53,995 nucleotides of DNA from Pseudomonadota bacterium (GTDB lineage: Bacteria > Pseudomonadota > Gammaproteobacteria > Burkholderiales > Rhodocyclaceae): positions 1 through 53,995 of the forward strand of contig CAUJIV010000045.1 in the NCBI GenBank assembly GCA_963205435.1, given 5' to 3'. The translations under genes were made by a program, and so were the position numbers. The notes beneath the pieces were generated by a model, which was not told the DNA's origin, searched no databases, and saw only the letters and a program-made list of their open reading frames with translations. Shown here in pieces: positions 1,780 to 25,217 of this stretch (its first letter is position 1; every line of letters begins with the position of its first letter).

Positions 1780-3639
<1,860 letters not shown>

Positions 3640-3693: not shown

Positions 3694-3698
3694 GTCAT

Positions 3699-3712
3699 TT
3701 GAGAAATGTCAA
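3699..3712 (+). promoter_or_regulatory. FNR/Dnr-like box upstream of nirC
   Basis: TTGAGAAATGTCAA keeps the TTGA-N6-TCAA core. It overlaps the first possible nirC ATG (3706), which favours the later ATG at 3751. The -10 at the expected offset (3735-3740, CATCCT) is weak, so function is less certain than for the nirS boxes. Confidence 0.55.
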
Positions 3713-3750
3713 GGCATCTCGCGCCGGCAACGGGCATCCTGCCTCTGACG

Positions 3751-6262: not shown

Positions 6263-6698
6263 GGCGGACCGCGCCATCCTCAACGGCCTGCAGGGCGGCT
6301 TCCCGCTTTGCGACGAGCCGTACCGCGAGGCGGCGGCGCGCATCGGGCTGACGGAGGCCGAGTTGCTCGAGCGCCTGCGGCGCCTGCTGGAAGCCGGGGT
6401 GCTGACGCGCTTCGGCCCGATGTACCAGGTCGAGCGCATGGGCGGCGCCTTCGTGCTGGCCGCGCTGGCAGTGCCGGAAGCCGACTACGAGCGCGTCGCG
6501 GAGGCAGTGAACGCCCTGGCGGAAGTGGCGCACAACTATCGGCGCGAGCACGCCCTCAACATGTGGTTCGTGCTGGCGACGGAGACGCCGGAGGGCATCC
6601 CGGCGGCCATCGCCAGGATCGAGCGGGCGACCGGACTCGAGGTCTTCGCCTTCCCCAAGCTGAAGGAGTATTTCGTCGAAATGAAGCTGCATGCCTGA
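6255..6698 (+). CDS. nirG: Siroheme decarboxylase subunit NirG
   Basis: 147-aa Lrp/AsnC-like protein of the NirD/G family, with the helix-turn-helix-like N-terminus and the AHNYRREHALNMWFVLATE motif of NirD/G halves. It is predicted to take part in siroheme decarboxylation. The ATG at 6255 lies inside the end of nirDL. The 3' end overlaps nirH by 8 bp. Confidence 0.9.
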   Translation: MDEADRAILNGLQGGFPLCDEPYREAAARIGLTEAELLERLRRLLEAGVLTRFGPMYQVERMGGAFVLAALAVPEADYERVAEAVNALAEVAHNYRREHALNMWFVLATETPEGIPAAIARIERATGLEVFAFPKLKEYFVEMKLHA

Positions 6699-7239: not shown

Positions 7240-7247
7240 GGAAGACT

Positions 7248-10095: not shown

Positions 10096-10133
10096 GCGGG
10101 CTGTCCGTGGCCGGCCGGGAACCGATCGAAGAC

Positions 10134-11381
10134 ATGAAATGCGTGGATGATTTCCGCCTGCGGCTCGGCCGCCGGGAGCTGGTGCCGATCATGATCGGCG
10201 GCATGGGGGTGGACATCTCCACCGCCGAGCTGGCGCTGGAGGCGGCGCGGCTGGGCGGCATCGGCCACATCTCGGACGCCATGATCAAGACGGTGTCCGA
10301 CCGCCGCTTCGACACCAAATTCGTCAGCGCCAAGCAGAAGCGCTACAAGCACAACGTCGCCAACGTCGACATGTCGGTGGTGAAGTTCGACCTCGGCGAC
10401 GCCGCCGAGGCGACCCGCCTGCATGTGCAGAGCACCATGGAAGCCAAGCGTGGCGACGGCCTGGTCTTCATCAACTGCATGGAAAAGCTGACCATGAACG
10501 CGCCGCGGGAAACCTTGCGCGTGCGCCTGGTCTCGGCCCTGGATGCCGGCATCGACGGCGTGACGCTGGCCGCCGGCCTGCACCTGGGCACCTTCGGCCT
10601 GATCGAGGACCACCCGCGCTTCCGCGACGCCAAGCTCGGTATCATCGTCTCCTCGCTGCGCGCGCTGCAGCTGTTCCTGCGCAAGAGCGCGCGCAGCCGT
10701 CGCCTGCCCGATTACGTCGTCGTCGAGGGGCCGCTGGCCGGCGGCCACCTCGGCTTCGCCCTCGACGACTGGATGAACCACGACCTGCGCGCCATCGTCG
10801 CCGAAGTCCTCGGCTGGCTAAGCCAGGAAAAGCTCGACATTCCGGTGATTCCGGCCGGCGGCATTTTCACCGGCGCGGACGCCGTCGGCTTTCTCGAGGA
10901 CGGCGCGGCGGCGGTGCAGGTGGCGACCCGCTTCACCGTGGCCAAGGAATGCGGCCTGCCGGCCAACGTGCAGCAGGAATATTTCAAGGCGGCCGAGGAC
11001 GACATCGAGGTCAACGGTATTTCGCCCACCGGCTTTCCGATGCGCATGCTGAAGGCCAGCCCGGCCATCGGCTCGGGCATCCGGCCGAACTGCGAGGCCT
11101 ACGGCTACCTGCTCGATTCGAACGGCCATTGCGCGTACATCGACGCCTACTACCGCGAGCTGGCGCGCCATCCGGGCGCCAAGAAGATCTCGGTGCGCGA
11201 CAAGACCTGCCTGTGCACCCACATGCGCAACTTCGACTGCTGGACCTGCGGCGCCACCACCTGGCGGCTGAAGGACACCACGCGCCGGCTCGAGGACGGC
11301 AGCTATCAGCTGCTCAGCGCCGAGCACGTCTTTCGCGACTACCAGTTCAGCAAGGGCGGCACGATCGCCTTGCCCGATTGA
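10134..11381 (+). CDS. Nitronate monooxygenase / 2-nitropropane dioxygenase-like flavoprotein
   Basis: FMN-dependent TIM-barrel protein of the NPD family, whose members oxidise alkyl nitronates or reduce other substrates such as enoyl-ACP. Family marks include PIMIGGMGVDISTAELA at the N-terminus, a VVVEGPLAGGHLG segment (catalytic His/phosphate region) and IPAGGIFTGADAVGFLEDGAAAVQVATRF. The 415-aa protein has a C-terminal extension with a Cys cluster (C359, C361, C369, C372), which could bind a metal or Fe-S centre. A GTG at 10107 is an alternative start. It lies downstream of nirN and upstream of a bidirectional terminator. Confidence 0.85.
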   Translation: MKCVDDFRLRLGRRELVPIMIGGMGVDISTAELALEAARLGGIGHISDAMIKTVSDRRFDTKFVSAKQKRYKHNVANVDMSVVKFDLGDAAEATRLHVQSTMEAKRGDGLVFINCMEKLTMNAPRETLRVRLVSALDAGIDGVTLAAGLHLGTFGLIEDHPRFRDAKLGIIVSSLRALQLFLRKSARSRRLPDYVVVEGPLAGGHLGFALDDWMNHDLRAIVAEVLGWLSQEKLDIPVIPAGGIFTGADAVGFLEDGAAAVQVATRFTVAKECGLPANVQQEYFKAAEDDIEVNGISPTGFPMRMLKASPAIGSGIRPNCEAYGYLLDSNGHCAYIDAYYRELARHPGAKKISVRDKTCLCTHMRNFDCWTCGATTWRLKDTTRRLEDGSYQLLSAEHVFRDYQFSKGGTIALPD

Positions 11382-11452: not shown

Positions 11453-13384
11453 TCAGGCTGGCGGCGTTTCCGCGTCCACCTGCAGGGCCATGGAGCGCGC
11501 CGACAGGGTGAAGGCGTCGGAGAAGCACATGCCCTCCTCGGCGCCCTGGCCCTTCAGCTTGGGGAAGACCGCCTCGACCATGCGCACCGAGCCGCAGGCG
11601 TAGATCTCCTTGCCGGCGAGGCTGGGGAAATCCTTCAGGATGGCCTCGTGCACCAGCCCCGTGCGGCCGCTCCAGCCGTCGCCCGCCTCCGGCTCGGAGA
11701 CCACCGGGATGAACTTGAAGTTGGCGTGCTCGCGCTGCCACTGCTCGGGAAGCTGCGGCATGTAGAGGTCGCGCGCCTGGCGCACGCCCCAGTAGAGGTG
11801 GATCGGACGCTTGAGGCCGCGATGGAAGGCATCCTCGACCATGCTCTTCACCGGGGCGAAGCCGGTCGCGCCGGCGACGAAGATGATCGGCCGCTCCGAC
11901 TCGCGCAGGACGAAGTCGCCGAGCGGGCCTTCGAAGCGGATCGTGTCGCCCACCTGCATCTTCTCGAAAACATGAGTGGTGAAGCGCCCGCCCGGCACCA
12001 GGCGGATCTGCAGCTCGATGTGCTCGGCCTCGTGCGGCGCGCTGGCGAATGAGAAGGGACGCCGCTCGCCGTCCTCGAGGATGATGTTGATGTACTGGCC
12101 GGCGGCGAAGGGGATCTTTTCGTCGTGGGGCAGGCGGATCGTCACGCCCATGACGTCATGGGTGAGCTTCTCCATGCGGTCGACCGTGCCGACGTATTCC
12201 TTCGCAGGCGCGCGTGCCAGGGCGAACTCGGGTTCGTACTCGATCTCGATGTCGGTCAGCGGGGTGGCACAGCACATCAGCACCTTGCCCATGGCGCGCT
12301 CGGCATCGCTCAGCGCGCTTGGCTGGTAGATGCCGGGATCGACCTCGCCGTTGAGGACCGAGCACTTGCAGACGCCGCAACCGCCGTTGCGGCACTGGTA
12401 GGGCAGGTCGATCTCGCCGCGCAGGCCGGCGTCGAGGATGGTCTCGCCGAAGCGCGCCTTCACCGTCTTGTTGTCCGGATGCACGCTGATGGCCATCACG
12501 GCCTGGGCGCTGCCGCGCCGCTTCGGCGGCAGCCAGGGGACGAGGTAGAGCAGGACCGTGACGCCGATCAGCAGGGCCCAGACGCGGCCGAGCGGCCAGT
12601 CGTAGATGAGCGGATAGACGAAGAGATAGAACCAGTCGAAATCGAGCTCGACGATCTCCACCGAGAGGTTGGCCGGCGCCTGGCTCACCACCGGCTTGAC
12701 CAGCGACAGCACGAGGAAGGTCAGGGTGACCCAGATGGCGATGGCGCGCGGCGGATTGATGTGGGCGCGCGGTACCCGCTGCACGTGGATCCACATCACC
12801 ATCAGCACCAGCAGCGGCGCGCCGAGGTGGATGAAGGCGAGCAGGGTGAACAGGCGGTCGTTCACCTTGCCCTCGAAGATGAAGTTGCGGATGACCATGC
12901 CCTTGAAGATCGGGATCCAGTCGAACAGCTCGGCCGTCGCCACGGTGACGAACTGCGCCGTCTTGTCCCACACCAGCATGAAGCCGTTGATGCCGGAGAT
13001 GTACACCAGCCAGATGAGGATGACGCCGGTGACCCAGGAGAACCAGCGGAAGCCGCGGTACTGGTCGAAGGCGAAGTGCCGCGCCATGTGCAGCATCATG
13101 GTGATGATCATGCCGTCCGAGGCATAGCGGTGGATGCTGCGCAGGATGCCGCCGGCCCACCACTGGTCGTGGGTGAGGGCCTGGATCGAGGCGTAGGCGT
13201 CCTCGACGCCGGTGTCGGCGAAGACGAACAGATAGAGCCCGCTGAAGGCGACCAGCCAGAACTGCCAGAAGGTGATGGTGCCGAGGTGGTAGAGCGGGTT
13301 CAGCTTCTCGCCGAAGGCGATGTTGAAGACGCCGTCGACGCGCATGAAGAACCAGCGCATGGTCTTGTGCAGGAGCTTGAGCAT
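11453..13384 (-). CDS. Fusion protein: diheme cytochrome b - [2Fe-2S] ferredoxin - FAD/NAD(P) reductase
   Basis: 643-aa membrane protein. Residues 1-290 form a cytochrome b/b6-type N-terminal domain with four predicted heme ligands, H85/H99 and H186/H200, in the classical 14-residue spacing. Residues 295-385 are a plant-type [2Fe-2S] ferredoxin (C331, C336, C339 and a Cys at 371/372). Residues 395-630 are a ferredoxin-NADP reductase-like module with RPFSFAS for FAD, GATGFAP for NAD(P) and a late CGS motif. The architecture suggests electron flow between NAD(P)H and membrane b-hemes. It is a paralogue of the cytochrome b part of the gene at 17047-18618. An FNR-type box and TATATT -10 lie upstream at canonical spacing. 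The physiological partner is unknown. Confidence 0.88.
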   Translation of the reverse strand: MLKLLHKTMRWFFMRVDGVFNIAFGEKLNPLYHLGTITFWQFWLVAFSGLYLFVFADTGVEDAYASIQALTHDQWWAGGILRSIHRYASDGMIITMMLHMARHFAFDQYRGFRWFSWVTGVILIWLVYISGINGFMLVWDKTAQFVTVATAELFDWIPIFKGMVIRNFIFEGKVNDRLFTLLAFIHLGAPLLVLMVMWIHVQRVPRAHINPPRAIAIWVTLTFLVLSLVKPVVSQAPANLSVEIVELDFDWFYLFVYPLIYDWPLGRVWALLIGVTVLLYLVPWLPPKRRGSAQAVMAISVHPDNKTVKARFGETILDAGLRGEIDLPYQCRNGGCGVCKCSVLNGEVDPGIYQPSALSDAERAMGKVLMCCATPLTDIEIEYEPEFALARAPAKEYVGTVDRMEKLTHDVMGVTIRLPHDEKIPFAAGQYINIILEDGERRPFSFASAPHEAEHIELQIRLVPGGRFTTHVFEKMQVGDTIRFEGPLGDFVLRESERPIIFVAGATGFAPVKSMVEDAFHRGLKRPIHLYWGVRQARDLYMPQLPEQWQREHANFKFIPVVSEPEAGDGWSGRTGLVHEAILKDFPSLAGKEIYACGSVRMVEAVFPKLKGQGAEEGMCFSDAFTLSARSMALQVDAETPPA

Positions 13385-13496: not shown

Positions 13497-13576
13497 GGCT
13501 GCAAAGAAGCATGAAAGGGACAATTTTGCTGCCACATCCCAGTCCAGAACTCGAAACCATCCTCAGGAGTACAGGC

Positions 13577-13840
13577 ATGTCCGACCCCCACCTGCATCTG
13601 CAAGCCGACAAGCTCTACCTTTTCGACGCGCGCGGCATCGCCAAGCGCTTCCGCCATGCCGCCATCTTCGGCGCCTTCGACGCGCTGTTCGCCGGTGAAA
13701 CCATGCGATTCTGCAACGACCACGATCCGCTGCCGCTGCTCGAGCAGCTGATGGCGCGCTACGGCGACCGCATCGAGATCAGCTACGTCCAGCGCGAGCG
13801 CGGCGAGGTCATCATCGATTTCCTCAAGAAGCAGGCTTGA
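13577..13840 (+). CDS. DUF2249-domain protein
   Basis: 87-aa soluble protein of the DUF2249 family (FDARGIAKRFRHAAIFGAFDALFAGETMRF and later HDPLPLLEQL). Such domains often occur with hemerythrin-like or NO/denitrification genes, but their reaction is not established. The ATG at 13577 is chosen because AGGAGT precedes it by 6 bp; an upstream ATG at 13511 would precede the predicted transcription start (13531). It probably forms an operon with the membrane protein that follows. Confidence 0.8.
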   Translation: MSDPHLHLQADKLYLFDARGIAKRFRHAAIFGAFDALFAGETMRFCNDHDPLPLLEQLMARYGDRIEISYVQRERGEVIIDFLKKQA

Positions 13841-13855
13841 GCGGCGGGGCGTCGC

Positions 13856-14986
13856 GTGCTGCCGCAAATGGTGGCCGCGGCCGTCGCCGCCTTCGCCGCG
13901 GCGCTGGCGCTGCACCTCACGGGTGGCGCCAGCCCGGCGGCAGCCGCGCACCTCGCCTTCGCCGCCGGCATCCTGCCGCTGATCGCCGCCGCCCTGCTGC
14001 ATTTCGTTCCGGTGCTGACGCGCAGCGGCCCGCCGCCCCTGGCGATTCGCTGCCTGCCGCCGGCGTTTCTCCTCGCCGGCTGGCTGGCCGCCGCGGCGTT
14101 CCTGTGGCCCGCCTGGTTCGATATCCTGTTCCCGGCCGCGGCCGGGATCGCATTCGTCGCCGCGCTGATGGTGGCCGGATGGACCGCGCGCCGCGGCCGC
14201 GCCACGCTGGGCGCGCCGCATCCGGGACTGCGCTGGTACCTGGCCGCGCTGTTCTGTCTGTCGCTGGCGCTGGCCGCGGCCCTGGCGATGCCGGTTCTGC
14301 CGGGGCAACGATCCGCCCTGCGCCTCTTTCATTTGCATCTTAACACGCTCGGTTTCGTCGGCCTGACGGCGCTGGGGACGCTCGCCGTGCTGCTTCCCAC
14401 GGCCGTCGGACAGCCCGATCCGCAGGCCGCCGGCTGGCTGGGCCGCATGCTGACGCCGGCGCTGGCCGGCGTCCTGGCGACCGCCGCCGGCGCCGCCTGG
14501 TGGCTGCCCGCCAGCTGGCTGGGCGCCGTGCTGCTCGCGCTGCCGGTCATCCGCCTCGGCAAGGCCTGGCTCGTGCGCTTTCCGCATGCGATCGTCAACA
14601 CCCATGGCCCGGCCGCATCGCTCGCCCTGGCGCTCGCCGGTCTCGCCGGGCTGCTGATCCTCGGCTTTCTGCATGGCCAGCGCCTGCTTCGTGGCGAAGC
14701 GGCCGTCACCGGCTTTCTTGCCGCCTTTCTCCTGCCGCTGGTGACCGGCGCGGCCAGCCAGTTGCTGCCGGTCTGGCTGGAGCCCGGTGTGCAGGGCGAC
14801 TGGCATCGCGCGGCGCGCGCCCGCCTCGGCCGCTACGCGGCGGCGCGGGCGGCGGCTTTCGTGCTGGCCGGCTGGCTGGCGGCGCTGGGCTGGCCAGCCG
14901 CCGCGTGGCTGGCGGCCGTCGCCCTGGCCGTGTTCATCGCGCAGGCGTTGCCGGTGGCGGCGCGCCGTCCGCTTCCGCGCTTGTGA
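13856..14986 (+). CDS. Polytopic membrane protein, possibly heme- or metal-binding (NnrS/oxidase-like)
   Basis: 376-aa protein with about ten predicted membrane helices. It starts with GTG at 13856, 15 bp after the DUF2249 stop. Conserved-looking His residues occur within helices (LLHFVPVLTR, LRLFHLHLNTLGFVG, NTHGPAA). That pattern recalls NnrS and oxidase-subunit-I-like heme proteins, but I cannot assign a family. Its position behind an FNR-controlled DUF2249 gene suggests a role in nitric oxide metabolism or resistance. Its 3' end overlaps the converging small gene at 14934-15143 by 53 bp. Confidence 0.6.
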   Translation: MLPQMVAAAVAAFAAALALHLTGGASPAAAAHLAFAAGILPLIAAALLHFVPVLTRSGPPPLAIRCLPPAFLLAGWLAAAAFLWPAWFDILFPAAAGIAFVAALMVAGWTARRGRATLGAPHPGLRWYLAALFCLSLALAAALAMPVLPGQRSALRLFHLHLNTLGFVGLTALGTLAVLLPTAVGQPDPQAAGWLGRMLTPALAGVLATAAGAAWWLPASWLGAVLLALPVIRLGKAWLVRFPHAIVNTHGPAASLALALAGLAGLLILGFLHGQRLLRGEAAVTGFLAAFLLPLVTGAASQLLPVWLEPGVQGDWHRAARARLGRYAAARAAAFVLAGWLAALGWPAAAWLAAVALAVFIAQALPVAARRPLPRL

Positions 14987-15143
14987 TCACTGCGCCGAGG
15001 TCGAGCGAGCGCATCGCTCCGACGGCGACTTCCCAGGCGCCCTCGTGGCACAGGCCGCGAATCTGCGCGTCCTCGTAGGCTTCCAGCGCCGCCTCGACGC
15101 AGGCGCGGCGCACCGCCTCGCCGATGTCACGCGGGCCGGCCAT
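14934..15143 (-). CDS. Small conserved-looking protein of unknown function
   Basis: 69-aa soluble protein with the core RRACVEAALEAYEDAQIRGLCHEGAWE at about residues 12-38; the C-terminal tail looks dispensable. It starts within the last 17 bp of the oxidase-like gene and would be the last gene of that minus-strand operon. Its end overlaps the converging membrane protein gene. Function is unknown. Confidence 0.5.
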   Translation of the reverse strand: MAGPRDIGEAVRRACVEAALEAYEDAQIRGLCHEGAWEVAVGAMRSLDLGAVITSAEADGAPPPATPAR

Positions 15144-16539
15144 CGGCTCCCGCCCGCTTGCGGCGCATCGCCAGCAGCACGACGACGACGAACACCAGCC
15201 CGCCGATGATGGCGACGAGGCCGCCCATGCCCATGATGCCCATGGCGACGATTTCGCTGCCGCTCTTCAGCGCCTGCTCGGCGCCGGCGACCTTGCGCTG
15301 CACGCCGTAGCCGCCCGACCACATCAGTCCGCCGATGTGCATGGCCTGGCCGGCGGCGTAGCAATAGGAGGAGAAGACCGCCCATTTGCGCGATGGCAGG
15401 CCATAGCCGAGGCGCGGCAGCAGGTGATAGACGAGGCCCATCAGGGCCAGCGTGACGCCGACGATGCAGCCGTGGTAGTGCGCCGGGATCTTGACGTTGC
15501 TGCCGGCGATGGTGAAGCCGATCAGGCCGCCGAAGCAGAACAGGACGACGGAGGAATGCAGCGCCGCGCGCAGCGGCCGCCCCTCGCCGGCCAGCGCCTG
15601 CCCCGGTGGCACGGCCAGCAGCACGGCCAGCGCCACCGGCAGGATCGGCAGTCCGCCGCCCAGCCCCATGGCGAAGGTGAGCAGGCTGCGATGCTCGACG
15701 GCCCAGGGCGGCCACGGCAGGTAGGCAACGGGTATGACCAGCGCGCAGGCCGTGGCCAGGACGAAGCACAGCAGGGCGATGCGCGGGCTCATCGGCACCC
15801 GCCCGCCGCAGGCGCTGGCCAGCCACAGCCAGGCGACCAGCATCAGCGTCGTCCAGATGAACTGCAGGGCATGGCCGCCATCCCAGAAGAGGATTTCGTA
15901 GTAGGCCTTGCCGTCGAGCCCGTCGGGAAGGATCAGCCAGGACCAGGCGAAGGCGAGAATGGCGATGACGGCCGGCACGAGGCCGAGGGCGAGGCCTGTC
16001 TGCAGAGCTTCGGCGCCGCTCTCGGGTCGGAAGCTGAAATGGGTAGCGATCAGGCTGCGGGCCACCAGCAGCGTCGCGCCGACGCCGAAGATCGCCAGGC
16101 CCCAGAGAAAAACCGGGCCGTCGAGCACGGGGATGTAATTCGCCATGACCGGCTCGCCGCTGCCGGCGAAAGGGGAGACGGCCATGAGCACGGTGCCGAG
16201 ACCGGCGACGGCAAGGGCGGCGCGGTTGAGCCCGAGCGCGCGCGGGCGCCCTGACAGGGTCCACAGGATGCCGCCAAGGGAGACGAACCAGACCAGCACC
16301 GACAGGTCGACATGCACGACCAGGGCGACGCGGAAAAAGTCACCCGCCGGCAACAGGCTCTGGAATTGCGGCGCGCGGGAAAGGACGAGGATGATGGAAA
16401 GAAAGCCCGAGCCGATCAGGGCGGCGAGACCGAGCCAGAGCCAGCCGCGCGCGATGGCGCCTAGCCGGGCATCCGCGCCGGGCAGACTGAAATCGCCGGC
16501 GTTCGCTGCCAAGGCAACGGGCTGCGCGACCGCGCTCAT
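15127..16539 (-). CDS. Divergent heme-copper oxidase subunit I, candidate eNOR-type nitric oxide reductase
   Basis: 470-aa polytopic protein of the heme-copper superfamily. Predicted ligands are H76 (helix II low-spin heme), H223 in WDGGHALQF (Cu/Fe site, helix VI), H283 in VEHRSLL (helix VII), and H354/H356 in PAHYHG (high- and low-spin heme, helix X). The Tyr of O2-reducing oxidases (H-x3-Y) is absent; the motif reads HALQF with Gln at H+3. Helix VII has Glu-His instead of His-His. These changes fit an NO-reductase-like branch rather than a terminal oxidase; eNOR is my best guess, not proven. The start overlaps the stop of the 172-aa gene (ATGA). Confidence 0.75.
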   Translation of the reverse strand: MSAVAQPVALAANAGDFSLPGADARLGAIARGWLWLGLAALIGSGFLSIILVLSRAPQFQSLLPAGDFFRVALVVHVDLSVLVWFVSLGGILWTLSGRPRALGLNRAALAVAGLGTVLMAVSPFAGSGEPVMANYIPVLDGPVFLWGLAIFGVGATLLVARSLIATHFSFRPESGAEALQTGLALGLVPAVIAILAFAWSWLILPDGLDGKAYYEILFWDGGHALQFIWTTLMLVAWLWLASACGGRVPMSPRIALLCFVLATACALVIPVAYLPWPPWAVEHRSLLTFAMGLGGGLPILPVALAVLLAVPPGQALAGEGRPLRAALHSSVVLFCFGGLIGFTIAGSNVKIPAHYHGCIVGVTLALMGLVYHLLPRLGYGLPSRKWAVFSSYCYAAGQAMHIGGLMWSGGYGVQRKVAGAEQALKSGSEIVAMGIMGMGGLVAIIGGLVFVVVVLLAMRRKRAGADGRPA

Positions 16540-17054
16540 TGAAAGAGGATGCCTTCGCGGTCCTTGGGCAGGTCGATGACGAGGATCTGCGCCGGCTTCA
16601 GCGTGAGGCGCTCCTCCCGCACGAGGTTGAAGCCGGGGATGCGCACGTTGTCGTTCATCTTCACCGACAGCAGGTGCTCGCCGGACGGCACTTCGAAGCG
16701 CTTGTAGAGGGTGGACGGCATGTCCTTGGACAGCCCGCCGGGCGGCGCCACGCCCTCGTAGAGAAGATTGCCGTCGAGCATGATTTCCACCCTGATCGGC
16801 GAGCGCTCGCGCGGGCAGACCTTCGTGGCGCGCATGTTCGGCGCCAGCTTGGCCAGTTCCTCGGGCGTGCGCTCGCGGCATTCGCTGATCGGCTCGGCCT
16901 GGGTGCTGAAGGAGAGCTTGATCAGCGAGACGTTTGGCTCGAGGTGGGTGTAATCCGGCGAGGTGGAGAAATAGCCGATGATGGCGGCGAACAGGCCGTA
17001 GAAAAGGATTTGCGCCAGCAGAACCAGCGGATTGGTGGGCGATTTGCTAACCAT
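16536..17054 (-). CDS. Single-span membrane protein with beta-rich periplasmic domain; candidate accessory subunit of the oxidase-like protein
   Basis: 172-aa protein with one N-terminal membrane helix (about 8-28) and a periplasmic domain containing two Cys (SECRERT and KVCPRERSP) and beta-like stretches (PIRVEIMLDG, SGEHLLSVKMND). It has no CuA ligand set. It overlaps the fusion gene upstream by 8 bp and the oxidase subunit I gene downstream by 4 bp, so the three are almost certainly co-translated. It may occupy the place of subunit II. I do not recognise a family. Confidence 0.75.
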   Translation of the reverse strand: MVSKSPTNPLVLLAQILFYGLFAAIIGYFSTSPDYTHLEPNVSLIKLSFSTQAEPISECRERTPEELAKLAPNMRATKVCPRERSPIRVEIMLDGNLLYEGVAPPGGLSKDMPSTLYKRFEVPSGEHLLSVKMNDNVRIPGFNLVREERLTLKPAQILVIDLPKDREGILFQ

Positions 17055-18618
17055 GTCGGGGCGTCCTCCGGGGATTATAAGCGCGCGGACGCCTTGCGTC
17101 CGCGTCCAGCCTCTGCAGATTTTCGCGAAAATTCTCGAGCGCTGCCTTGAGGTGGCTCATTTCATGGGCGTCGGCCCAGGCGATGCGCAGCCTTTCCGCC
17201 GGCACGCTGCGCCGCAAGTGCGGCTCGCGGCCGCCGGACAGGCGCTCTTCGGTCCAGCGCGTGCCGAGGCGGTAGGCGCAACTGCCCTCGCGGCAGCCCG
17301 TGACGAGTACGCCGTCGGCGCCGCCGCGCAGGGCGTATTCGATGAAGCTGGGCGGCAGCTGGCCGGTGCAGATCAGCCGGATGACGGCGGTGTCCGGGGC
17401 TTCCAGCGCGGCCGCGTCGGCGGCGCAACCGCAGCCGAAGACGACGACCTTGGCGGGACCGCTGAGCGCGGCGACCTTGCGCTCCAACTCCTCCCTCAGG
17501 ATGCCGACCGGCTGCTGCGGCATGTCGATGCCGGTGACCAGCTGCTCGACGCTGCGAAAAGGTGTGGCGGAAGGGCAGGAGCCGGCGCAGATGCCGCAGG
17601 AGGCGCACAGTTCCGGATGGACGAGAGCCAGCTCGTGTCCTGGCCGGTCCGGGTGTGGCAGCATGGTGATGGCGCCATAGGGGCAATCAGCGAAGCAGCG
17701 GCGGCAGCCGTTGCAGTTGGGCGGATCGACCACGGCAACAGGGCCTTGCTTGCGGTGCGGCAGCAGCGGCAGGGCGAGTAGCAGCAGGGTGAGCGCGCCG
17801 GTGATGGCCCACAGACCGGCCGGCGAGGTGGCGTACATCAGAGGATGGATGAACAGGTAGTACCAGTCGATATGGAGCACCGGCGCCAGGTTGCTCAGGT
17901 CGGCCTTGCCGTGGGAGACCGTCGGCTTCACCAGGGCCAGCGCCAGCAGCATGAGCAGGCTGCCGCCGGCCAGCGAGCGCGAGGGGAAGACGTCCGCCCG
18001 CGAGATGCGCTGGACATGCACCCACAAGGCGAGCAGCAGCAGCAGGGGGATGCCGATGTGCAGGAACACCAGCAGGGTGAAAAAGCGGTCTGTGAGCACG
18101 CCCGGCAGGAAGTTGCGCGTCGCCGGGGTGCTGAAGATCGGCAGCCAGTCGAACCATTCGGCGCTGGCGACGGCCGAGAACAGGCCGAGCTGGTCCCACA
18201 CCAGCCAGTAGCCGCCGATGCCGGAAGCATAGACCAGCCAGATCACCGGAACGCCGGTGACCCAGGAGAACCAGCGGAAGCCGTTGAAGCGCCCATACAG
18301 CAGCTCGCGCAGCAGGTGCAGCAGCATGACGATGACGAGCCCGTCCGCGGCATAGCGGTGCAGGCTGCGCATGATGCCGCCCAGCCACCACTGCTCATGG
18401 GTGTAGTACTCGATCGAGGTGTGGATTTCCTCGATGCCGGTGTCGAGGACGGCGAACAGGTAGATGCCGGTGGCGAGCGCGATCCAGAGGAAATGAAAGC
18501 CAAGCGCGCCCAGATGCCGCCAGGGATTGCTGGCGGGACCAAAAAAGGCATCGAAAAGGCTCTCGATCCGCTGCAACAGGGCAAGCCCGCCCTGACGAAT
18601 GGAGGCAAATGCAGCCAT
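17047..18618 (-). CDS. Fusion protein: diheme cytochrome b - 2x[4Fe-4S] ferredoxin - MvhD-like domain
   Basis: 523-aa protein. Residues 1-290 are a cytochrome b domain with H87/H101 and H187/H201 as probable heme ligands, paralogous to that at 11453-13384. Residues 300-350 hold two [4Fe-4S] motifs (C302/305/308/312 and C338/341/344/348). Residues 385-460 match the delta subunit of F420-non-reducing hydrogenase (MvhD), with C396, C398, C417, C442 and C447 and the segment GGADGVLVTGCREGSCAYRLG. MvhD normally passes electrons to HdrA. Here it is tied to a membrane cytochrome b and co-transcribed with an oxidase-like subunit, suggesting a dedicated electron-input module from a cytosolic donor. 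Confidence 0.88.
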   Translation of the reverse strand: MAAFASIRQGGLALLQRIESLFDAFFGPASNPWRHLGALGFHFLWIALATGIYLFAVLDTGIEEIHTSIEYYTHEQWWLGGIMRSLHRYAADGLVIVMLLHLLRELLYGRFNGFRWFSWVTGVPVIWLVYASGIGGYWLVWDQLGLFSAVASAEWFDWLPIFSTPATRNFLPGVLTDRFFTLLVFLHIGIPLLLLLALWVHVQRISRADVFPSRSLAGGSLLMLLALALVKPTVSHGKADLSNLAPVLHIDWYYLFIHPLMYATSPAGLWAITGALTLLLLALPLLPHRKQGPVAVVDPPNCNGCRRCFADCPYGAITMLPHPDRPGHELALVHPELCASCGICAGSCPSATPFRSVEQLVTGIDMPQQPVGILREELERKVAALSGPAKVVVFGCGCAADAAALEAPDTAVIRLICTGQLPPSFIEYALRGGADGVLVTGCREGSCAYRLGTRWTEERLSGGREPHLRRSVPAERLRIAWADAHEMSHLKAALENFRENLQRLDADARRPRAYNPRRTPRHG

Positions 18619-18718: not shown

Positions 18719-19555
18719 TTACTTCCGCGCGGAGTCCGCGCCAGCGACCCGCTCTCCGCGCAGATAGGCCAGCCAATACACGCCGGCGACGAGCAGCGTT
18801 CCGCCGACCAGATTGCCCAGCGTGACGGCGACAAGGTTGCGCGCGGCACCGGCGAGCAGAGACGGTCCTTGCGCGTCCATCAGCAGCCCATAGGGCAGGA
18901 AAAACCAGTTGGCGATAGAGTGCTCGAAGCCGATGGCGACGAAGGCGCTCACGGGAAATAGGACGGCCAGGATCTTGTCGGTCACGCTGCGCGCGCCGAT
19001 GGCCAGCCAGACGGCGAGGCATACCAGCGCATTGCAAAGAATTCCCCTTGCAAAGGCCTCGAGAAGGGGCAGGTCCGCCTTGGCGCGGGCGATGCCCAGG
19101 GCGGTGTCCCCGACGGCGCCGTTGCCGAGGCCGGCGATGCCGCCCCAGGCCACCAGCAGGACCGTGCCGAGGCAGCCCGCCACGTTGCCGGCATAGGCCA
19201 GCAGCCAGTTGCGTGCCACCTCGCGCAAGCCGATCAGGCGGCTCGCCCAGGCCATGGCGATCAGGTTGTTTCCGGTGAACAGCTCGGCGCCGGCGACGAC
19301 GACGAGAACCAGGCCGAGGCAGAAGCTGAGGCCGCCGAGCAGGCGGGTGGGGCCGAAGCCGAGGCTGGATCCGGTGACGACGATGGTGAAGAAGAGCGCG
19401 CCGAGCGAGATGAAGGCGCCGGCCAGCACGGCCAGCGCCAGCAGCGTCAAGGTGTCCGTGCGCGCCTTGGCGACGCCGAGGCGCTCGACCCGGCGCGCGA
19501 TTTCCTGAGGAGGGTAGGCTTCATTCATGGGGGTGTCGTCATGCATGGTCGGCAT
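18719..19555 (-). CDS. Formate/nitrite transporter (FNT/FocA-NirC) family protein
   Basis: Channel/transporter for small anions such as nitrite or formate. The product (278 aa from 19555, 269 aa from the ATG at 19528) has six predicted helices and FNT features: LAGAFISLGALFF in the first helix, AGAELFTGNN in the second, CNALVCLAVWLA, VAIGFEHSIANWFFLP and NLVAVTLGNLVGG. Neither start has a strong ribosome site. Its place beside nir and NO-reductase-like genes suggests nitrite traffic. Confidence 0.88.
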   Translation of the reverse strand: MPTMHDDTPMNEAYPPQEIARRVERLGVAKARTDTLTLLALAVLAGAFISLGALFFTIVVTGSSLGFGPTRLLGGLSFCLGLVLVVVAGAELFTGNNLIAMAWASRLIGLREVARNWLLAYAGNVAGCLGTVLLVAWGGIAGLGNGAVGDTALGIARAKADLPLLEAFARGILCNALVCLAVWLAIGARSVTDKILAVLFPVSAFVAIGFEHSIANWFFLPYGLLMDAQGPSLLAGAARNLVAVTLGNLVGGTLLVAGVYWLAYLRGERVAGADSARK

Positions 19556-19639: not shown

Positions 19640-20497
19640 TCAAGATGCGGCCTTGCGCCGGCGCAATTCGCGCCAGAGGAACCAGAGAATGTAGAGGGCA
19701 AAGGTGATGAAGCCGAGGATTTCGAAGACGATGCCGTAGCTGACCCGGTAGCCGCCGATCTTCGGGTCATAGACGGAGCAGAGGATGCGTACGCGGTCGA
19801 AGATGTCGGCGAGGCTGTCGGTCTGCGAGACGGGGGCGCCGGTGACGAGCTGCTTGAGCGGGCGGACGAACTGCTCCGCGCCGAGGGTCTCGCCATAGAT
19901 CTGCCGGTAGATCTTTCCTTCGGCGTCGACCAGGGTAACCTGGACGATGTGGTCGAAGCCGGCCGGCGTCGGCTTGAAGCTGAAGCCGAAGCTCTTCGTC
20001 AGTTCGTCGACGATGGCGGGCGCCGGGCTGAGGAAGTCCCAGTTCGGGAAGACGATGCCGTTTTGCCGGGCGAAGGCCTTCATGGCGGACGGCGAATCGA
20101 AGGGCTGGTTGAAGCCGATGCTGACGACGTTGAAGCGGTTGGCACCGATCACGGCGACGGTCTGGTTGAGGGCTTTTTCCAGGTTCCGCGTGGTGGTCGG
20201 GCAGACGTCGAAGCAACCGGTGTAGATGAAGCTCACCAGCAGCGGCTTGCCGCGGTAATCGGCCAGCCGCACCGGCTTTTCTTCGCGATTGAGCAGGGTG
20301 AAGTCGCCGATCGGCTGGCTCACGACAGAGCGGGAAAGCTCGAGCGCCGCCTCCGCATCGAGGACGGGCACGTTGGGCGCCGCGGCCGGATCGAGCGGGC
20401 GCGAGACGATGCGACCTTCGTCGGCGGCGGCTGCGGCGGCCAGGCCGGCACCACAGAGCAAGAATACCCCAAGGTAGAAAAAACGAATTGTTTCCAT
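19640..20497 (-). CDS. SCO1/SenC family copper chaperone
   Basis: 285-aa thioredoxin-fold protein with a signal peptide (1-25), the copper motif TGCFDVCP (C95, C99), distal copper ligand H183 in GFDHIVQV, and a C-terminal membrane helix (about 255-275). SCO proteins insert copper into CuA of oxidase subunit II. It follows the subunit I gene, as senC follows norSY in ammonia oxidisers, but an intrinsic terminator lies between them. Start is the ATG at 20497. Confidence 0.92.
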   Translation of the reverse strand: METIRFFYLGVFLLCGAGLAAAAAADEGRIVSRPLDPAAAPNVPVLDAEAALELSRSVVSQPIGDFTLLNREEKPVRLADYRGKPLLVSFIYTGCFDVCPTTTRNLEKALNQTVAVIGANRFNVVSIGFNQPFDSPSAMKAFARQNGIVFPNWDFLSPAPAIVDELTKSFGFSFKPTPAGFDHIVQVTLVDAEGKIYRQIYGETLGAEQFVRPLKQLVTGAPVSQTDSLADIFDRVRILCSVYDPKIGGYRVSYGIVFEILGFITFALYILWFLWRELRRRKAAS

Positions 20498-20607: not shown

Positions 20608-22293
20608 TCAGGACAGCCCCCACAGGGAGGACAGGTACTTCCAGTTCACGAAGTAGTAGAGGATGAAGGCCGTGAGGAAGACCAGGGCCAGCACCAGGGT
20701 GCCCGGCGTGGCGGGCGGATGCGCCGCGCCGCCCGGGGTCGGCGGCGGCAGGGTCAGCACCTGCGGGATGCTGCGCTGCTCGCCTCCCTCCAGCTTCTTG
20801 CCGAAGAAGATGGAGAGGACGATCTGCAGGATCCAGCCCGCGCCGCCGACGATGGCGACGACGCCGAAGATGCCCGTCAGGCCCATCATCAGGTAGGCCG
20901 CGCCCGGCCACTCGTAGGCCATCGGCGCGCCGGCGAAGGCCATGTCCCAGTGGCGGCGGGAAACGCCGAGCGTGCCGGCGCCCATCATCACCAGCGAGAC
21001 GATGTACATCGCCAGGCCGTAGAGATAGGGCTGGATCTTGGCGAAGCCGGGGAACATCACCTCACGCTTGAACAGGGCCGGAACGAGGAAATAGGTCAGG
21101 CCCATGAACGCCAGCGTGGTGCCGACGACGACGGTGGCATGGAAGTGGCCCGGCACGTAGATGGTGTTGTGGATCAGCATGTTCAGCTGTTCCGCGCCCA
21201 TCATGACGCCGGTGATGCCGCCGAGGAAGCCGAAACCGACCAGCGAGAGGAACATCGCCGAGAAGGCCGGGTTGCCCCAGGGCGCCTTGCGCAGCCACTC
21301 GAAGAGGCCCTTGTTGTAGCCCTTCAGGCGCTGCGCCTGCTCGATGGCGCCCGGCACCGTCATGCCGTGGATCATCGAGGCGAACACCGCGAAGTACATG
21401 AAGTACGAGGTGTTCACGATCTTCCACTCGGAGCTCATGCCCGGGTCGGACAGGATGTGGTGGGCCGAGGCAAGCTGCAGGAACAGGATGTAGAGGAAGT
21501 AGGCCGTGCGGCTGACTTTCTCGCTCATCGGCTTGGCGCCGAAGACGATGGCGGCGATGGCGTACCAGATGGCGACGTGGGCCGAGACGTTGATCTGCTG
21601 CGAGCTGTGGCCGAGCGACCACCAGATGACACGGTACATCAGCGTGTCGATCTCGCGGATGTAGCCGATCGACCAGAAGAAGGTCGGCACCAGGATGATG
21701 GCGCCGCCGGCGATGGTGAAGATAGCGATGATGCAGGCCGTCAGGGCGCCGAAGGTGACCAGCGGGATCGAGCCCTCGTAGGTGTTCTCCGCCTTGGCCA
21801 CCACCAGCGTGCCGAGGAAGACGAAGCAGATCAGCAGTGCGCCGACGGCGAACAGGATCAGGCCGAGGTAGAAGTGCCACTTGGCCTGCATCGGCACGTA
21901 GGAGGTGAACATCACGCTCGACTCGCCCTGGAAGATGGCGATATTGGTCATGATGGCGCCGACCACCATCAGCCAGGAGCTGAACCAGGCGATTTTCGGC
22001 GTCGCGATGCGGCAGCGCAGCAGGGTCGACGAGGCGAAGATCAGCACGGCCATCTCGAAGAAGATGATCCAGAAGATCAGCATGTCGACGCCGTGGGCGG
22101 TGAGCACCAGGTAGAAGATGTCGGCCGGCAGCAGGTGCACGGCCGGCCAGCGGGTCAGGATGACCCCCAGCGCCATGATGCCGCCGACGAGCAGCGACAG
22201 CACGCCGCAGACGGCGTGGAAGCGCATCAGCTTCTCCGCCTGGTCCTCGAATTGCAGCCCGGAACGCGGGCAGATGCGGTAAGTGGTTTCCAT
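20608..22293 (-). CDS. norY: B-family heme-copper oxidase subunit I lacking the active-site Tyr, candidate sNOR (NorY)
   Basis: 561-aa polytopic protein. Predicted ligands are H67 (low-spin heme), H229 in SLGHSSQQINVSA, H278/H279 in SAHHILSDPG (B-family helix VII signature) and H383/H385 in PGHFHA. The cross-linked Tyr of O2-reducing enzymes (H-P-x-x-Y) is replaced by Gln (HSSQQ). Together with a CuA subunit II, a 48-aa helix and SCO1, this matches my recollection of the sNOR group (norSY-senC) first noted in ammonia oxidisers. NO reduction is thus inferred; a residual oxidase role cannot be excluded. Confidence 0.82.
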   Translation of the reverse strand: METTYRICPRSGLQFEDQAEKLMRFHAVCGVLSLLVGGIMALGVILTRWPAVHLLPADIFYLVLTAHGVDMLIFWIIFFEMAVLIFASSTLLRCRIATPKIAWFSSWLMVVGAIMTNIAIFQGESSVMFTSYVPMQAKWHFYLGLILFAVGALLICFVFLGTLVVAKAENTYEGSIPLVTFGALTACIIAIFTIAGGAIILVPTFFWSIGYIREIDTLMYRVIWWSLGHSSQQINVSAHVAIWYAIAAIVFGAKPMSEKVSRTAYFLYILFLQLASAHHILSDPGMSSEWKIVNTSYFMYFAVFASMIHGMTVPGAIEQAQRLKGYNKGLFEWLRKAPWGNPAFSAMFLSLVGFGFLGGITGVMMGAEQLNMLIHNTIYVPGHFHATVVVGTTLAFMGLTYFLVPALFKREVMFPGFAKIQPYLYGLAMYIVSLVMMGAGTLGVSRRHWDMAFAGAPMAYEWPGAAYLMMGLTGIFGVVAIVGGAGWILQIVLSIFFGKKLEGGEQRSIPQVLTLPPPTPGGAAHPPATPGTLVLALVFLTAFILYYFVNWKYLSSLWGLS

Positions 22294-22306
22294 TGACGTG
22301 CCCCCC

Positions 22307-22846
22307 TTATTTCACGTACAGGCGGCCAGCCATGGTGTGGTGGCCGATGCCGCAGAATTCATTGCAGACGATGGAGTAGGTGCCGCGTGCGTTCGGCGTG
22401 ATCTTGATCACGTGCTCGTAGTTCGGGTGCACCTGGATGTTGATGTTCTGCGGCTGCAGGGAGAAGCCGTGCATGTAGTCCATGGCCGAGAGATGGAGGG
22501 TGTAGGTCTTGCCGTGCTCCAGCTCGAAGATCGGCCACCAGGCCCACAGGCGGGCGATCAGGTAGATGTCGGAGCCGGGCGGGGGCGCCACCACCGGCAC
22601 CTGCAGCTCGGTTTCGGTGCGGACGGTGTATTTGTCGACCACGGCCTGCGCCTTGGCGGCGAACATTTCCTTGGTCGTGCGGTAGGTCTCGTTGGCCAGG
22701 TTCTGGTTGCCGTAGGCGTGCCACCAGATCATCATGCCGAACATGACCAGGGCCCAGACGAAGGCGATCGAGATCCAGGTCAATTCCAGCTTGTCGACTG
22801 GCTGGTTCCACCAGATTCGTTCCGAGGGCGGCAGGATTGCGCTCAT
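22307..22846 (-). CDS. norS: Heme-copper oxidase subunit II with CuA (NorS-like)
   Basis: 179-aa protein with one N-terminal membrane helix (about 22-43) and a periplasmic cupredoxin domain. All CuA ligands are present: H126 (YMHGFS) and C161, E163, C165, H169, M172 in CNEFCGIGHHTM. It therefore accepts electrons from a cytochrome c or similar donor. The single helix and short length fit B-family (ba3-like) subunit II. It lies 13 bp upstream of the subunit I gene. Confidence 0.9.
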   Translation of the reverse strand: MSAILPPSERIWWNQPVDKLELTWISIAFVWALVMFGMMIWWHAYGNQNLANETYRTTKEMFAAKAQAVVDKYTVRTETELQVPVVAPPPGSDIYLIARLWAWWPIFELEHGKTYTLHLSAMDYMHGFSLQPQNINIQVHPNYEHVIKITPNARGTYSIVCNEFCGIGHHTMAGRLYVK

Positions 22847-23248: not shown

Positions 23249-24295
23249 ATGGACGACTCTGCCCGCCGCCAGATCGCGCTCTGGCTTTTCGTCTGTGCCG
23301 CAATGGTCTTCGCCACCCTGGTCGTCGGCGGCGTCACGCGCCTGACCCGCTCCGGCCTGTCGATCGTCGAATGGCAGCCGCTGGTCGGCACCCTGCCCCC
23401 CCTGTCCCAGCAGGACTGGCTGGAGGTCTTCGGCAAATACCAGCAGACACCGGAATTCCGGCAGGTCAACCACGACATGACGCTGGACGAGTTCAAGTTC
23501 ATCTTCTGGTGGGAATACTTTCACCGCCTGCTCGGAAGGACGATCGGACTGGTGTTCCTGCTCCCTTTCCTCTACTTCCTGTTGCGGCGCAGGATCGAGG
23601 GTTCGCTGGTGCCGAAACTGATCGGCATCTTCCTCCTCGGCGGCCTGCAGGGCGCGATGGGCTGGTACATGGTGAAGAGCGGCCTGGTCGACGATCCCAG
23701 GGTCAGCCAGTACCGCCTGACGGCCCACCTCTCGCTCGCCTTTCTCATCTTCATCGCCATGATGTGGGTGGCGCTTGGCCTGATCGAGGAGCGTTCGCGC
23801 TATTTCGCCAACCAGGGCTGGCGCCGTCTGCAGCGCTTCGGCTTCTGGCTGTTCGTTCTCGCCTGCTACATGGTCGTCACCGGCGGCTTCGTCGCCGGCA
23901 TCCATGCCGGCAAGGCCTACAACACCTTCCCGCTGATGAACGGCCATGTCGTGCCGCCGGAGATCCTGATGCTCGATCCCTGGTACTTCAATTTTTTCAG
24001 CAACATGGCCACGGTGCAGTTCGATCATCGCCTCGGCGCCTGGCTGCTGGCCCTGCTCGCGCCGTGGTTCTGGTTCCGCCTGCGGCGCTTCCCCGTCCGC
24101 GGCCGCGCCCAGGCCGTGGCCGGCCTGATGCTGCTGGTGCTCGCCGGTCAGATCAGCCTGGGCATCCTGACCCTGCTCAATGCCGTGCCGGTCGCCCTCG
24201 GCGCCGCCCATCAGGGCGGCGCCATGGTGCTGATGGCGACCCTGCTCTGGCTCAACCACGAACTGCGCGTGCCGGCCCCCTTGCGGGCCGGCTGA
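23249..24295 (+). CDS. ctaA: Heme A synthase, COX15/CtaA family
   Basis: 348-aa eight-helix membrane protein that converts heme O to heme A. COX15-type marks include VVGGVTRLTRSGLSIVEWQP, FWWEYFHRLLGR, QGAMGWYMVKSGL, RLTAHLSLAF, VQFDHRLGAWLL and AAHQGGAMVL, which supply the conserved His residues. Transcription diverges from the norSY-like operon. Its presence implies heme A in some oxidase of this organism, perhaps outside the window. Confidence 0.92.
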   Translation: MDDSARRQIALWLFVCAAMVFATLVVGGVTRLTRSGLSIVEWQPLVGTLPPLSQQDWLEVFGKYQQTPEFRQVNHDMTLDEFKFIFWWEYFHRLLGRTIGLVFLLPFLYFLLRRRIEGSLVPKLIGIFLLGGLQGAMGWYMVKSGLVDDPRVSQYRLTAHLSLAFLIFIAMMWVALGLIEERSRYFANQGWRRLQRFGFWLFVLACYMVVTGGFVAGIHAGKAYNTFPLMNGHVVPPEILMLDPWYFNFFSNMATVQFDHRLGAWLLALLAPWFWFRLRRFPVRGRAQAVAGLMLLVLAGQISLGILTLLNAVPVALGAAHQGGAMVLMATLLWLNHELRVPAPLRAG

Positions 24296-24299: not shown

Positions 24300-25217
24300 A
24301 TGGCTGCCGGAATGACGGGCGCTCTCTCCGCGCGCTTCCGCCGCATCCGCGCCCTGGCGCTGCTGACCGCCGCGCTGTCCCTGCTGGTCGTCGCCGTCAG
24401 CGCCTACCTGCGCCTGGCCGGCGCCGGCCTCGGCTGCGAGGACTGGCCCGCCTGCTATGGCAGCAATCTCGCCGGCGCCCCGCATCCGGCGTGGCCGGGA
24501 GCGAGGCTCCTGCATCGCATCGCGGCGAGCGCGGCGCTGCTGGCGGCCCTGCTGCTGGCCTGGAACTGCTGGCGGCCTCGGCCCCTGCAGCCGGAGGCGC
24601 GACGCGCCATGCGGTTGCTGGCCCTGATGCTGCTGCTCGCCCTGCTCGGCGCCTGGAGCGCCGATCCGCGCCGGGTCGCCGTCAATTGGGCGAACATCGT
24701 CGGCGGACTCGCCTTGGTGGCGCTCTCGTGGCGGGTGATGGCGAGCGCCTCGTCGCTGCCGCGGGGCGAGGCCGGCCGGCAGGGCGCGGTCGCGCGGGCG
24801 GCCCTGGCGGCGCTGGCGGCGACCGTCCTCCTCGGCGGCCTGATCGGCGCGCGCTACGCCGCGCCGGCCTGCGGCACGCTGCCCTTCTGTGGCGGGGCAT
24901 GGCTGCCGGAGGGCGGATGGGCGGCGCTCAATCCCTTCGCCCTGCTGGCGGGCCCGGCCGGGCCCGGAGATGCCGGTGGCGTGCTGCTGCACCTGCTCCA
25001 CCGCCTCGGCGCCCTTGTCGCGCTGGCGCTGTTCGCCGTCCTCGCGCTGCGGCGTGGCAAGGCGGCGCGCATGCTGCTGGCGCTGCTGGTGCTGGAAATC
25101 CTGCTTGGCGCGCTGGCCGTGTCCGGCCACGCGCTGTGGCCGGCGCTGGCGCACAATGCCGTCGCCGCGCTGCTGCTGGCGGCGGCCGCCGGGCTGAAGC
25201 CGGCGGCGGCGAGGTGA
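24300..25217 (+). CDS. CtaA/COX15-family membrane protein (second copy, Cys-containing type)
   Basis: 305-aa polytopic protein 4 bp downstream of ctaA. It has family marks VVAVSAYLRLAGAGLGC, EDWPACYG, LLHRIAASAALL, ACGTLPFCGG, LHRLGALVALALF and AHNAVAALLL. The extracytoplasmic Cys pairs (GCEDWPAC; CGTLPFC) are typical of the other CtaA subtype. Either it is a heme A synthase paralogue or the pair works together; some residues of the first module look degenerate (NWANIVGG in place of a His-bearing helix). Confidence 0.75.
   Translation: MAAGMTGALSARFRRIRALALLTAALSLLVVAVSAYLRLAGAGLGCEDWPACYGSNLAGAPHPAWPGARLLHRIAASAALLAALLLAWNCWRPRPLQPEARRAMRLLALMLLLALLGAWSADPRRVAVNWANIVGGLALVALSWRVMASASSLPRGEAGRQGAVARAALAALAATVLLGGLIGARYAAPACGTLPFCGGAWLPEGGWAALNPFALLAGPAGPGDAGGVLLHLLHRLGALVALALFAVLALRRGKAARMLLALLVLEILLGALAVSGHALWPALAHNAVAALLLAAAAGLKPAAAR

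Follow-up and report, generated by a model that had tools for sequence, protein, structure and literature searches.

A cytochrome b-iron-sulfur-FlpD fusion and its gene cluster

We report a gene cluster on contig CAUJIV010000045.1 (assembly GCA_963205435.1) of a Pseudomonadota bacterium of the Rhodocyclaceae; the stretch analysed, positions 1 to 53,995, is henceforth the window. At its center is the gene for a protein that we term FLPD, a fusion of a cytochrome b domain, a dicluster ferredoxin and a FlpD/MvhD-like domain. FLPD is accompanied by a small protein, orf172, and by a candidate nitric oxide (NO) reductase, C1/C2, encoded three and four genes upstream of it (20608-22846). These core components are as follows:

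17047..18618, minus strand: FLPD, fusion of cytochrome b, dicluster ferredoxin and FlpD, 523 residues
17749..18576, minus strand: b domain of FLPD, about residues 15-290 (extent approximate), six predicted transmembrane helices
17563..17736, minus strand: ferredoxin region of FLPD for two [4Fe-4S] clusters, about residues 295-352, eight invariant cysteines
17101..17451, minus strand: FlpD/MvhD-like domain of FLPD, about residues 390-506, four invariant cysteines
16536..17054, minus strand: orf172, 172 residues, one apparent transmembrane helix and a presumably periplasmic domain
20608..22293, minus strand: C1, B-type heme-copper subunit I, with the CuB pair H278/H279 and Gln233 at the tyrosine position
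22307..22846, minus strand: C2, cupredoxin subunit with CuA-type ligands

A sequence-only reading of the window had proposed the fusion of a cytochrome b, two [4Fe-4S] clusters and an MvhD-like domain, and the fusion is real: Pfam recognizes Cytochrome_B (residues 32-204), Fer4_7 (301-350) and FlpD (406-504), each over its curated cut-off, and the ligands are invariant in 21 aligned orthologs, that of the window included. These ligands are the heme histidines H87, H101, H187 and H201, forming two pairs on helices B and D with a 14/14 spacing; the ferredoxin cysteines C302/305/308/312 and C338/341/344/348; and C396, C417, C442 and C447 of the FlpD domain, which presumably hold one [2Fe-2S] cluster. 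Five cysteines had been counted in the latter domain; the fifth, C398, is a cysteine in 5/21 orthologs, and hence only four are invariant. A chance origin of the fusion is excluded by the 20 further full-length orthologs found among 300 genomes that share the order of the window (the order sample, with a match in 24 genomes, its own included, full-length in 21) and by 80 relatives (the named loci, which are the best 80 of 512, weaker ones possibly matching the ferredoxin motif only).

Judged by its sequence, the b domain is a bc1/b6-type cytochrome b. In a PDB search it is closest to cytochrome b6 and the C-terminus is closest to MvhD-type chains, while the AlphaFold2 model (mean predicted local distance difference test score, pLDDT, of 87.0) resembles bc1 cytochrome b and MvhD structures. 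Residues 294-506 align as a single block to the Fer4-FlpD C-terminus of HdrA2 (NF040770, positions 571-773), scoring 96.7 bits where the cut-off for the full length is 1100. The canonical motifs of the quinol-oxidizing (Qo) site in bc1/b6f cytochrome b are PWG and PEWY. At these places FLPD has W-D in place of P-W-G and x-D-W in place of P-E-W-Y, so that PEWY as such is absent; W141 is conserved in 20/21 orthologs, and D142 and D251-W252 in all 21. The loop charges follow the positive-inside pattern, with 1.04, 2.45, 2.48 and 1.87 Lys+Arg per 10 residues in the presumed cytosolic segments and 0.60, 0.34 and 0.32 in the periplasmic ones; the N-terminus and the iron-sulfur/FlpD end are thus presumed to be cytosolic.

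The gene of orf172 overlaps that of FLPD in the window, as had been read from the sequence, and the link is kept in 79/80 named loci (contig ends uncorrected). With contig edges considered, orf172 directly follows FLPD in 66/77 named and 16/20 order loci and in 18/19 loci of a phylum-wide sample described below; where it does not, a second cytochrome b fusion, cbFNR, precedes orf172 in most loci. The protein has two invariant cysteines, C59 and C80, which are spaced 21 residues apart and do not form a CxxC motif. No Pfam family could be assigned to it (best E 0.005, in single members), and a PDB search returned no informative relative.

A candidate eNOR-type NO reductase upstream of FLPD

Residues 21-482 of C1 align to the Thermus ba3 oxidase, its closest solved relative (E 2.4e-50). 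Its CuB ligands H229, H278 and H279 are invariant, and Gln233, which occupies the column of the ba3 tyrosine, is invariant in both alignments made, of 10 and 18 sequences. In C2, H126, C161, C165, H169 and M172 are invariant across 18 sequences. According to the excerpted text of PMC8756737, Gln is the eNOR residue at the tyrosine position and Asn that of sNOR; PMC8879329, likewise in excerpt and citing a preprint, describes the B-family subtype ba3-a1 as reducing NO with cytochrome c and as having been renamed eNOR; and the portion of PMC6431628 at hand describes ba3-a1 and related sequences without the catalytic tyrosine, with SCO within the cluster. C1/C2 is therefore termed a candidate eNOR-type NO reductase, an assignment made by fold and Gln signature and not by a reference tree. 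The name sNOR (norSY-senC) was considered for C1/C2 and dropped by this residue alone, C1 having Gln where the excerpt of PMC8756737 gives Asn for sNOR; a kinship with sNOR is still possible. In the part of PMC6967387 consulted the related sNOR is said to be perhaps an O2 reductase, and by analogy this doubt extends to C1 until activity is shown.

The link to NO metabolism that the sequence-only reading had drawn is hence supported, via C1/C2 and not via the oxidase-like gene, hco, that overlaps orf172 on its other side and is treated further below.

Operon linkage and co-occurrence across genomes

The conservation of this association was followed in three sets of loci: 20 from the order sample, the 80 named loci, and 20 from a phylum sample, a single set of 398 Pseudomonadota genomes that serves for all FLPD, C1 and hco counts. 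The sets overlap partly (for example, G132 = L084 and G010 = L120) and are not independent. Hosts of the named loci include Rhodocyclaceae, Accumulibacter, Dechloromonas, Sulfuritalea, Gallionellaceae, Rhizobacter, Ramlibacter, Herbaspirillum, Steroidobacteraceae, Sneathiellales and others. Among loci with enough flank, C1 lies at most 6.5 kilobases (kb) upstream of FLPD on the same strand in 56/61 named, 14/14 order and 10/16 phylum loci, and the copper chaperone SenC (SCO) lies within 3.5 kb upstream in 67/78, 16/18 and 11/18, respectively. Before any correction for contig ends, the 80 named loci contain SenC in 72, cbFNR in 71, C1 in 66 and C2 in 60 cases.

At the genome level, FLPD occurs in 34 and C1 in 30 of the 398 genomes (cut-offs of 1e-40 for FLPD, 1e-100 for C1 and 1e-50 for hco, with the first few candidates per genome scored). 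Both occur together in 29 genomes from 11 families, FLPD only in five, C1 only in one and neither in 363 (Fisher p 8e-38, with kinship ignored and the genomes not independent). C1 was further found in 13/15 genomes tested from two families.

To obtain an overview of the neighbors, the 1850 predicted proteins of all 120 loci were clustered and families present in at least five loci were considered, those lacking a label being named from sequence starts. The most constant families are the cytochrome b fusions (120 loci), orf172 (117), SenC (102), C1 (93), C2 (86), CtaB (82) and hco (81), followed by heme A synthase-like families (57 and 41), nirN/nirS (37), nirDL (21), nirJ (19) and a Crp/Fnr-like regulator (19); aldehyde-dehydrogenase-like and GMC-oxidoreductase-like families, also named from sequence starts, occur in seven loci each. 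The interval separating C1 from SenC was inspected in four loci (L032, L039, L092, L134), and in each of them the gene there reads as CtaB.

A linked hydrogenase or HdrA partner of FLPD was also sought, and no Hdr- or hydrogenase-like family was recognized among these families of the 120 neighborhoods, partly judged from sequence starts. Of the 23 genomes searched, 10 have no FlpD protein besides FLPD and 13 hold a second one; at three of four such loci inspected, HdrC- and HdrB-like genes come after it (by sequence starts, one HdrC-like protein being Pfam-scanned). Likewise, neither a Rieske protein nor a cytochrome c1/f was recognized among the families in at least 5/120 neighborhoods, by sequence starts and in part by Pfam scans, and for the neighborhoods only. 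A viral origin of FLPD was discarded, as none of 43 pattern matches in viral contigs is a relative.

The remaining genes of the cluster in the window are:

19640..20497, minus strand: SCO/SenC copper chaperone
18719..19555, minus strand: formate/nitrite-family transporter, between senC and FLPD
11453..13384, minus strand: cbFNR, a b domain 48% identical to that of FLPD, with a [2Fe-2S] ferredoxin and a FAD/NAD(P) reductase
23249..24295, plus strand: CtaA/COX15 heme A synthase
24312..25217, plus strand: a second, more divergent CtaA/COX15-like protein, in tandem with the first
46-10003, plus strand: nir operon, by Pfam, at the far end of the cluster

The b domain of cbFNR matches that of FLPD over 12497-13348, and the genome has another relative elsewhere with 31% identity. 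In two genomes of the order set, G022 and G100 (loci L053 and L054), C2, C1, SenC, cbFNR, orf172 and hco are present without FLPD, and cbFNR alone seems able to serve the cluster there. A tandem pair of cytochrome b-FlpD fusions is found in three loci of one family, f79 (L180, L187, L194), with cbFNR absent from the stretch. The second CtaA-like family, so called by resemblance, recurs in 57/120 loci. The transporter has no match in the 80 named loci and is nearer FocA than NirC, below both cut-offs. A DUF2249 protein and a membrane protein of about 370 residues without a Pfam family (13511-14986), on the strand opposite to the cluster, recur in 8/80 and 9/80 named loci, respectively, and a nitronate monooxygenase-like gene (10107-11381), between nirN and cbFNR, has similar genes in 13/120 loci.

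Association with nitrite respiration

The nir operon of the window codes for an FMN_bind/Fer4_5 protein, NirS (1933-3639), a cytochrome c, and NirF-like, NirDL-like, radical SAM NirJ-like and NirN-like proteins, the Nir names beyond the Pfam matches being those which we take to apply. Nir-type matches are found in 23/80 named, 4/20 order and 13/20 phylum loci, with the proviso that nirN matches at E<=1e-8 may stem from a shared cytochrome c or d1 domain. In nine of the 20 phylum loci (L176, L178, L179, L182, L183, L184, L185, L191, L193) a nirS match of 54-73% identity lies at most 1.2 kb from orf172, confirmed by Pfam in L178.

A minimal operon on a Defluviimonas plasmid

FLPD is rarely found on plasmids: of 72,556 plasmid records, a single one matches at E<=1e-30. 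This case, in Defluviimonas, has the order COX2-like, COX1, heme O synthase, SCO, FLPD, orf172 and hemerythrin. Its COX2-like protein (184 residues) is 54% identical to C2; its subunit I (576 residues) is 63% identical to C1 and shares the GHSSQQ motif; and its orf172 is 38% identical to that of the window, with a 4-bp overlap with FLPD. The gene at the CtaB position is of the UbiA family and is deposited as heme o synthase, while FLPD is deposited as 'cytochrome b N-terminal domain-containing protein' and orf172 as 'hypothetical protein'. Neither hco nor cbFNR is annotated in the 25.5 kb around this operon. The hemerythrin gene (L229:14089-14493) stands directly after orf172 and may code for an NO- or O2-binding protein.

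The overlapping heme-copper-fold protein is probably not a gas reductase

The sequence-only reading had taken the oxidase-like gene that overlaps orf172 for the gas-reducing enzyme and had raised the question whether both genes downstream of FLPD are always linked to it:

15127..16539, minus strand: hco, heme-copper-oxidase-fold protein of 470 residues with H76, H223, H354 and H356

Its start is most likely at 16539 rather than 16881. The fold is that of the heme-copper oxidases (Foldseek E 3.1e-9 to ba3; hhalign probability 99.6 to C1; mean pLDDT of the model 84.5), and in a profile alignment with C1, H76 (beside a one-column gap), H223, H354 and H356 pair with the heme and CuB histidines, with no counterpart to the helix-VII histidine pair of C1. 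H76, E215, H223, Q226, F227, H354 and H356 are invariant in 37 homologs, and H401 is kept in 35. An adjacent histidine pair inside the helix-VII segment, where the alignment is loose, occurs in none of the 37; just past helix VII such a pair occurs in seven, the protein of the window not among them, and its first histidine in 24. Hence, it is possible that some members have a degenerate metal site. The active-site position (His+4) is Phe227 in all 37, and is thus neither the Tyr nor the Glu, Gln, Asn or Asp of NO reductases. As the CuB histidine pair is not conserved and Phe stands at the tyrosine position throughout, hco is probably no gas reductase. It may, we infer, serve heme A enzymes in electron transfer or in assembly: in 7/14 hco loci of other genomes ctaA adjoins the hco relative. 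These seven loci, in other families, have no FLPD in the stretch (L195, L196, L200, L204, L205, L206, L208).

The hco-FLPD neighborhood varies by lineage. Where FLPD is flanked by 8 kb or more on each side, hco is present at 38/48 named, 9/9 order and 1/8 phylum loci; a constant link is seen for orf172 and not for hco, which with contig ends uncorrected is found in 58/80 named loci. The fusion is widespread and part of its loci lack the oxidase-like gene close by, yet 32 of the 34 FLPD genomes in the phylum sample hold hco, leaving two without it, and a further 25 of the 57 hco genomes lack FLPD. Of the 22 named loci without hco in the stretch, 15 were examined genome-wide and 14 of these genomes have it. 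The sole match in a Sneathiellales genome (L136) is weak, and in the genomes of the phylum loci, 19/20 of which hold hco, the one match in G475 is weak and located at C1.

A gas-reducing complex of FLPD, orf172 and hco is consequently very improbable. It could draw on the gene overlap in the window, on the linkage of hco in each of the 20 FLPD-bearing order loci (L032-L051, all of which also contain orf172), on the 32/34 genomes, and on the histidine pair or its first member just past helix VII in 7 and 24 of the 37 homologs; set against these are the absence of a pair within helix VII in any homolog and of one nearby in 30/37, the invariant Phe, the 25 genomes having hco without FLPD, the Defluviimonas operon with no hco annotated near it, and the weak match of L136.

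A possible electron-exchange module for NO reduction and its alternatives

That FLPD is functionally linked to eNOR and nitrite respiration is, in our judgment, probable, and the association of FLPD with an NO reductase suggests an extra electron route tied to NO removal. The reading we tentatively prefer, while rating it at a little under an even chance, is that FLPD and orf172 form a module dedicated to electron exchange in eNOR-type NO reduction by nitrite-respiring Pseudomonadota, which would pass electrons from a cytosolic donor to the membrane. The direction taken singly, from cytosolic donor to membrane, is about evenly balanced; a flow from a low-potential donor in the cytosol to a gas reductase, as the sequence-only reading had it, is plausible.

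In the proposed scheme, the b domain would span the membrane with two bis-histidine hemes, while the ferredoxin/FlpD part would be cytosolic. A soluble cytosolic donor would dock at the FlpD [2Fe-2S] center, from which electrons could pass via the two [4Fe-4S] clusters to the heme b on the cytosolic side, and from there either to quinone or via the second heme toward the periplasm. The output might feed the quinone or cytochrome c pool or, in a putative physical complex, the CuA subunit of eNOR, which would reduce NO, its presumed substrate, to N2O. Where present, cbFNR may be a parallel, NAD(P)H-driven input of like design that can replace FLPD. FLPD is accompanied by cbFNR in most order loci, whereas two genomes have cbFNR alone, others FLPD alone and one family a tandem FLPD; this pattern would be consistent with a dimer of cytochrome b whose cytosolic heads are interchangeable.

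Several observations weigh against the donor-to-membrane module. eNOR is reported, in the excerpt of PMC8879329, to take electrons from cytochrome c, so that eNOR does not require a low-potential input. Nor is FLPD obligatory, since C1 occurs without it in G022 (99% complete) and G100 (87%) of the order set and in G387 of the phylum set; conversely, C1 is not detected in 5/34 FLPD genomes (completeness 69-96%). In five loci of family f87 (L176, L178, L179, L183, L184) C1 is not within reach upstream, and it is present elsewhere in all five genomes (in G383 about 19 kb off on the same contig). No broadly conserved gene for a soluble donor is linked in the 120 neighborhoods, and the tandem second FLPD that takes the place of cbFNR in family f79 indicates that the inputs vary.

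A reversed flow, which we consider unlikely, is the alternative that survives best. Here quinol would be oxidized at a Qo-like site on the periplasmic side and electrons would run through the b hemes to the cytosolic iron-sulfur/FlpD part and, through cbFNR, to NAD(P)+, the module making cytosolic reductant during nitrite or NO respiration. The invariance of D142, D251 and W252 at the Qo-like positions speaks for it, as does the related b-FNR fusion next door; Accumulibacter genomes, moreover, carry the FLPD operon, and an Accumulibacter 'novel cytochrome' has reportedly been proposed for electron transfer from quinol to NAD(P)H. On general bioenergetic grounds, however, reducing NAD(P)+ or ferredoxin with quinol is an uphill step, and a flow from periplasm to cytosol opposes the membrane potential; furthermore, no Rieske protein was recognized among the recurrent neighbors.

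Still less probable is a maturation reductase, in which FLPD-orf172 would supply the periplasm with electrons from the cytosol, for the reduction of thiols, copper or heme intermediates in the building of the CuA/heme A enzyme. SenC, CtaB and CtaA are indeed among the most constant neighbors (102, 82 and 57+41 of 120 loci), orf172 has its two invariant cysteines and hco relatives elsewhere often adjoin ctaA; but in the five f87 loci the FLPD-orf172 pair stands beside nirS and away from C1, the 21-residue spacing of the cysteines is not that of CxxC, and the Qo-like site would serve no purpose. Finally, there is a slim chance of an NO-powered quinone bifurcation, in which quinol at the Asp-Trp site would split its two electrons between orf172/eNOR CuA, ultimately for NO, and, by way of the two b hemes, the cytosolic iron-sulfur/FlpD or [2Fe-2S]-FAD domains, yielding reduced ferredoxin-like carriers or NAD(P)H, with cbFNR and FLPD as halves of a cytochrome b dimer having different low-potential outlets.

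Relationship to known systems and significance

FLPD shares with bc1/b6f cytochrome b the four heme histidines, their spacing and the fold of the b domain, and differs from it in having Asp-Trp for PEWY, WD for PWG and extra cytosolic iron-sulfur domains, and in that no linked Rieske protein was recognized at FLPD loci. With HdrA2 and MvhD (FlpD) it shares the Fer4 + FlpD order of the HdrA2 C-terminus and the FlpD fold; unlike the HdrA/Hdr-Mvh systems, it lacks the flavin/HdrA core and has a cytochrome b in its place. QmoB is a membrane-linked case among the FlpD-type relatives of heterodisulfide reductase. The Accumulibacter 'novel cytochrome' of a 2006 metagenome paper is said to combine cytochrome b/b6 with NAD(P)/flavin domains; as such it would be of the cbFNR type, from the same operons, and not the FlpD fusion.

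To the eNOR (ba3-a1) clusters, as excerpted, the present one is alike in the C1/C2 family, the Tyr-to-Gln replacement, the CuA-type subunit upstream and the SCO neighbor, and unlike in its cytochrome b-FeS-FlpD subunit, no mention of which was found in the excerpted eNOR literature searched, the primary eNOR paper lying outside it. The sole trace of the fusion or operon in that search is a row in the Appendix 2 table of PMC8756737, which covers domains that accompany homologs of a nitrite-reductase-associated domain and lists RME88945.1 with cytochrome b6 (PRK03735), DMSOR_beta-like and FlpD domains. RME88945.1 is likened to FLPD by these listed domains alone, its function and operon being undiscussed in the part of the source that holds the table. 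The primary eNOR paper, being outside the search, may show the genes, and the priority of the FLPD-eNOR association is uncertain.

The release of N2O from soils, sediments and treatment plants is set by NO reductases. One class of these, eNOR, was recognized recently and is said in the excerpt of PMC8879329 to draw its electrons from cytochrome c. The module proposed here offers a role that can be tested for genes with vague names, such as the Defluviimonas copies, and has Accumulibacter among its holders; if the proposal is true, a cytosol-facing iron-sulfur/cytochrome b module would tie NO reduction in these bacteria to the redox state of the cytosol.

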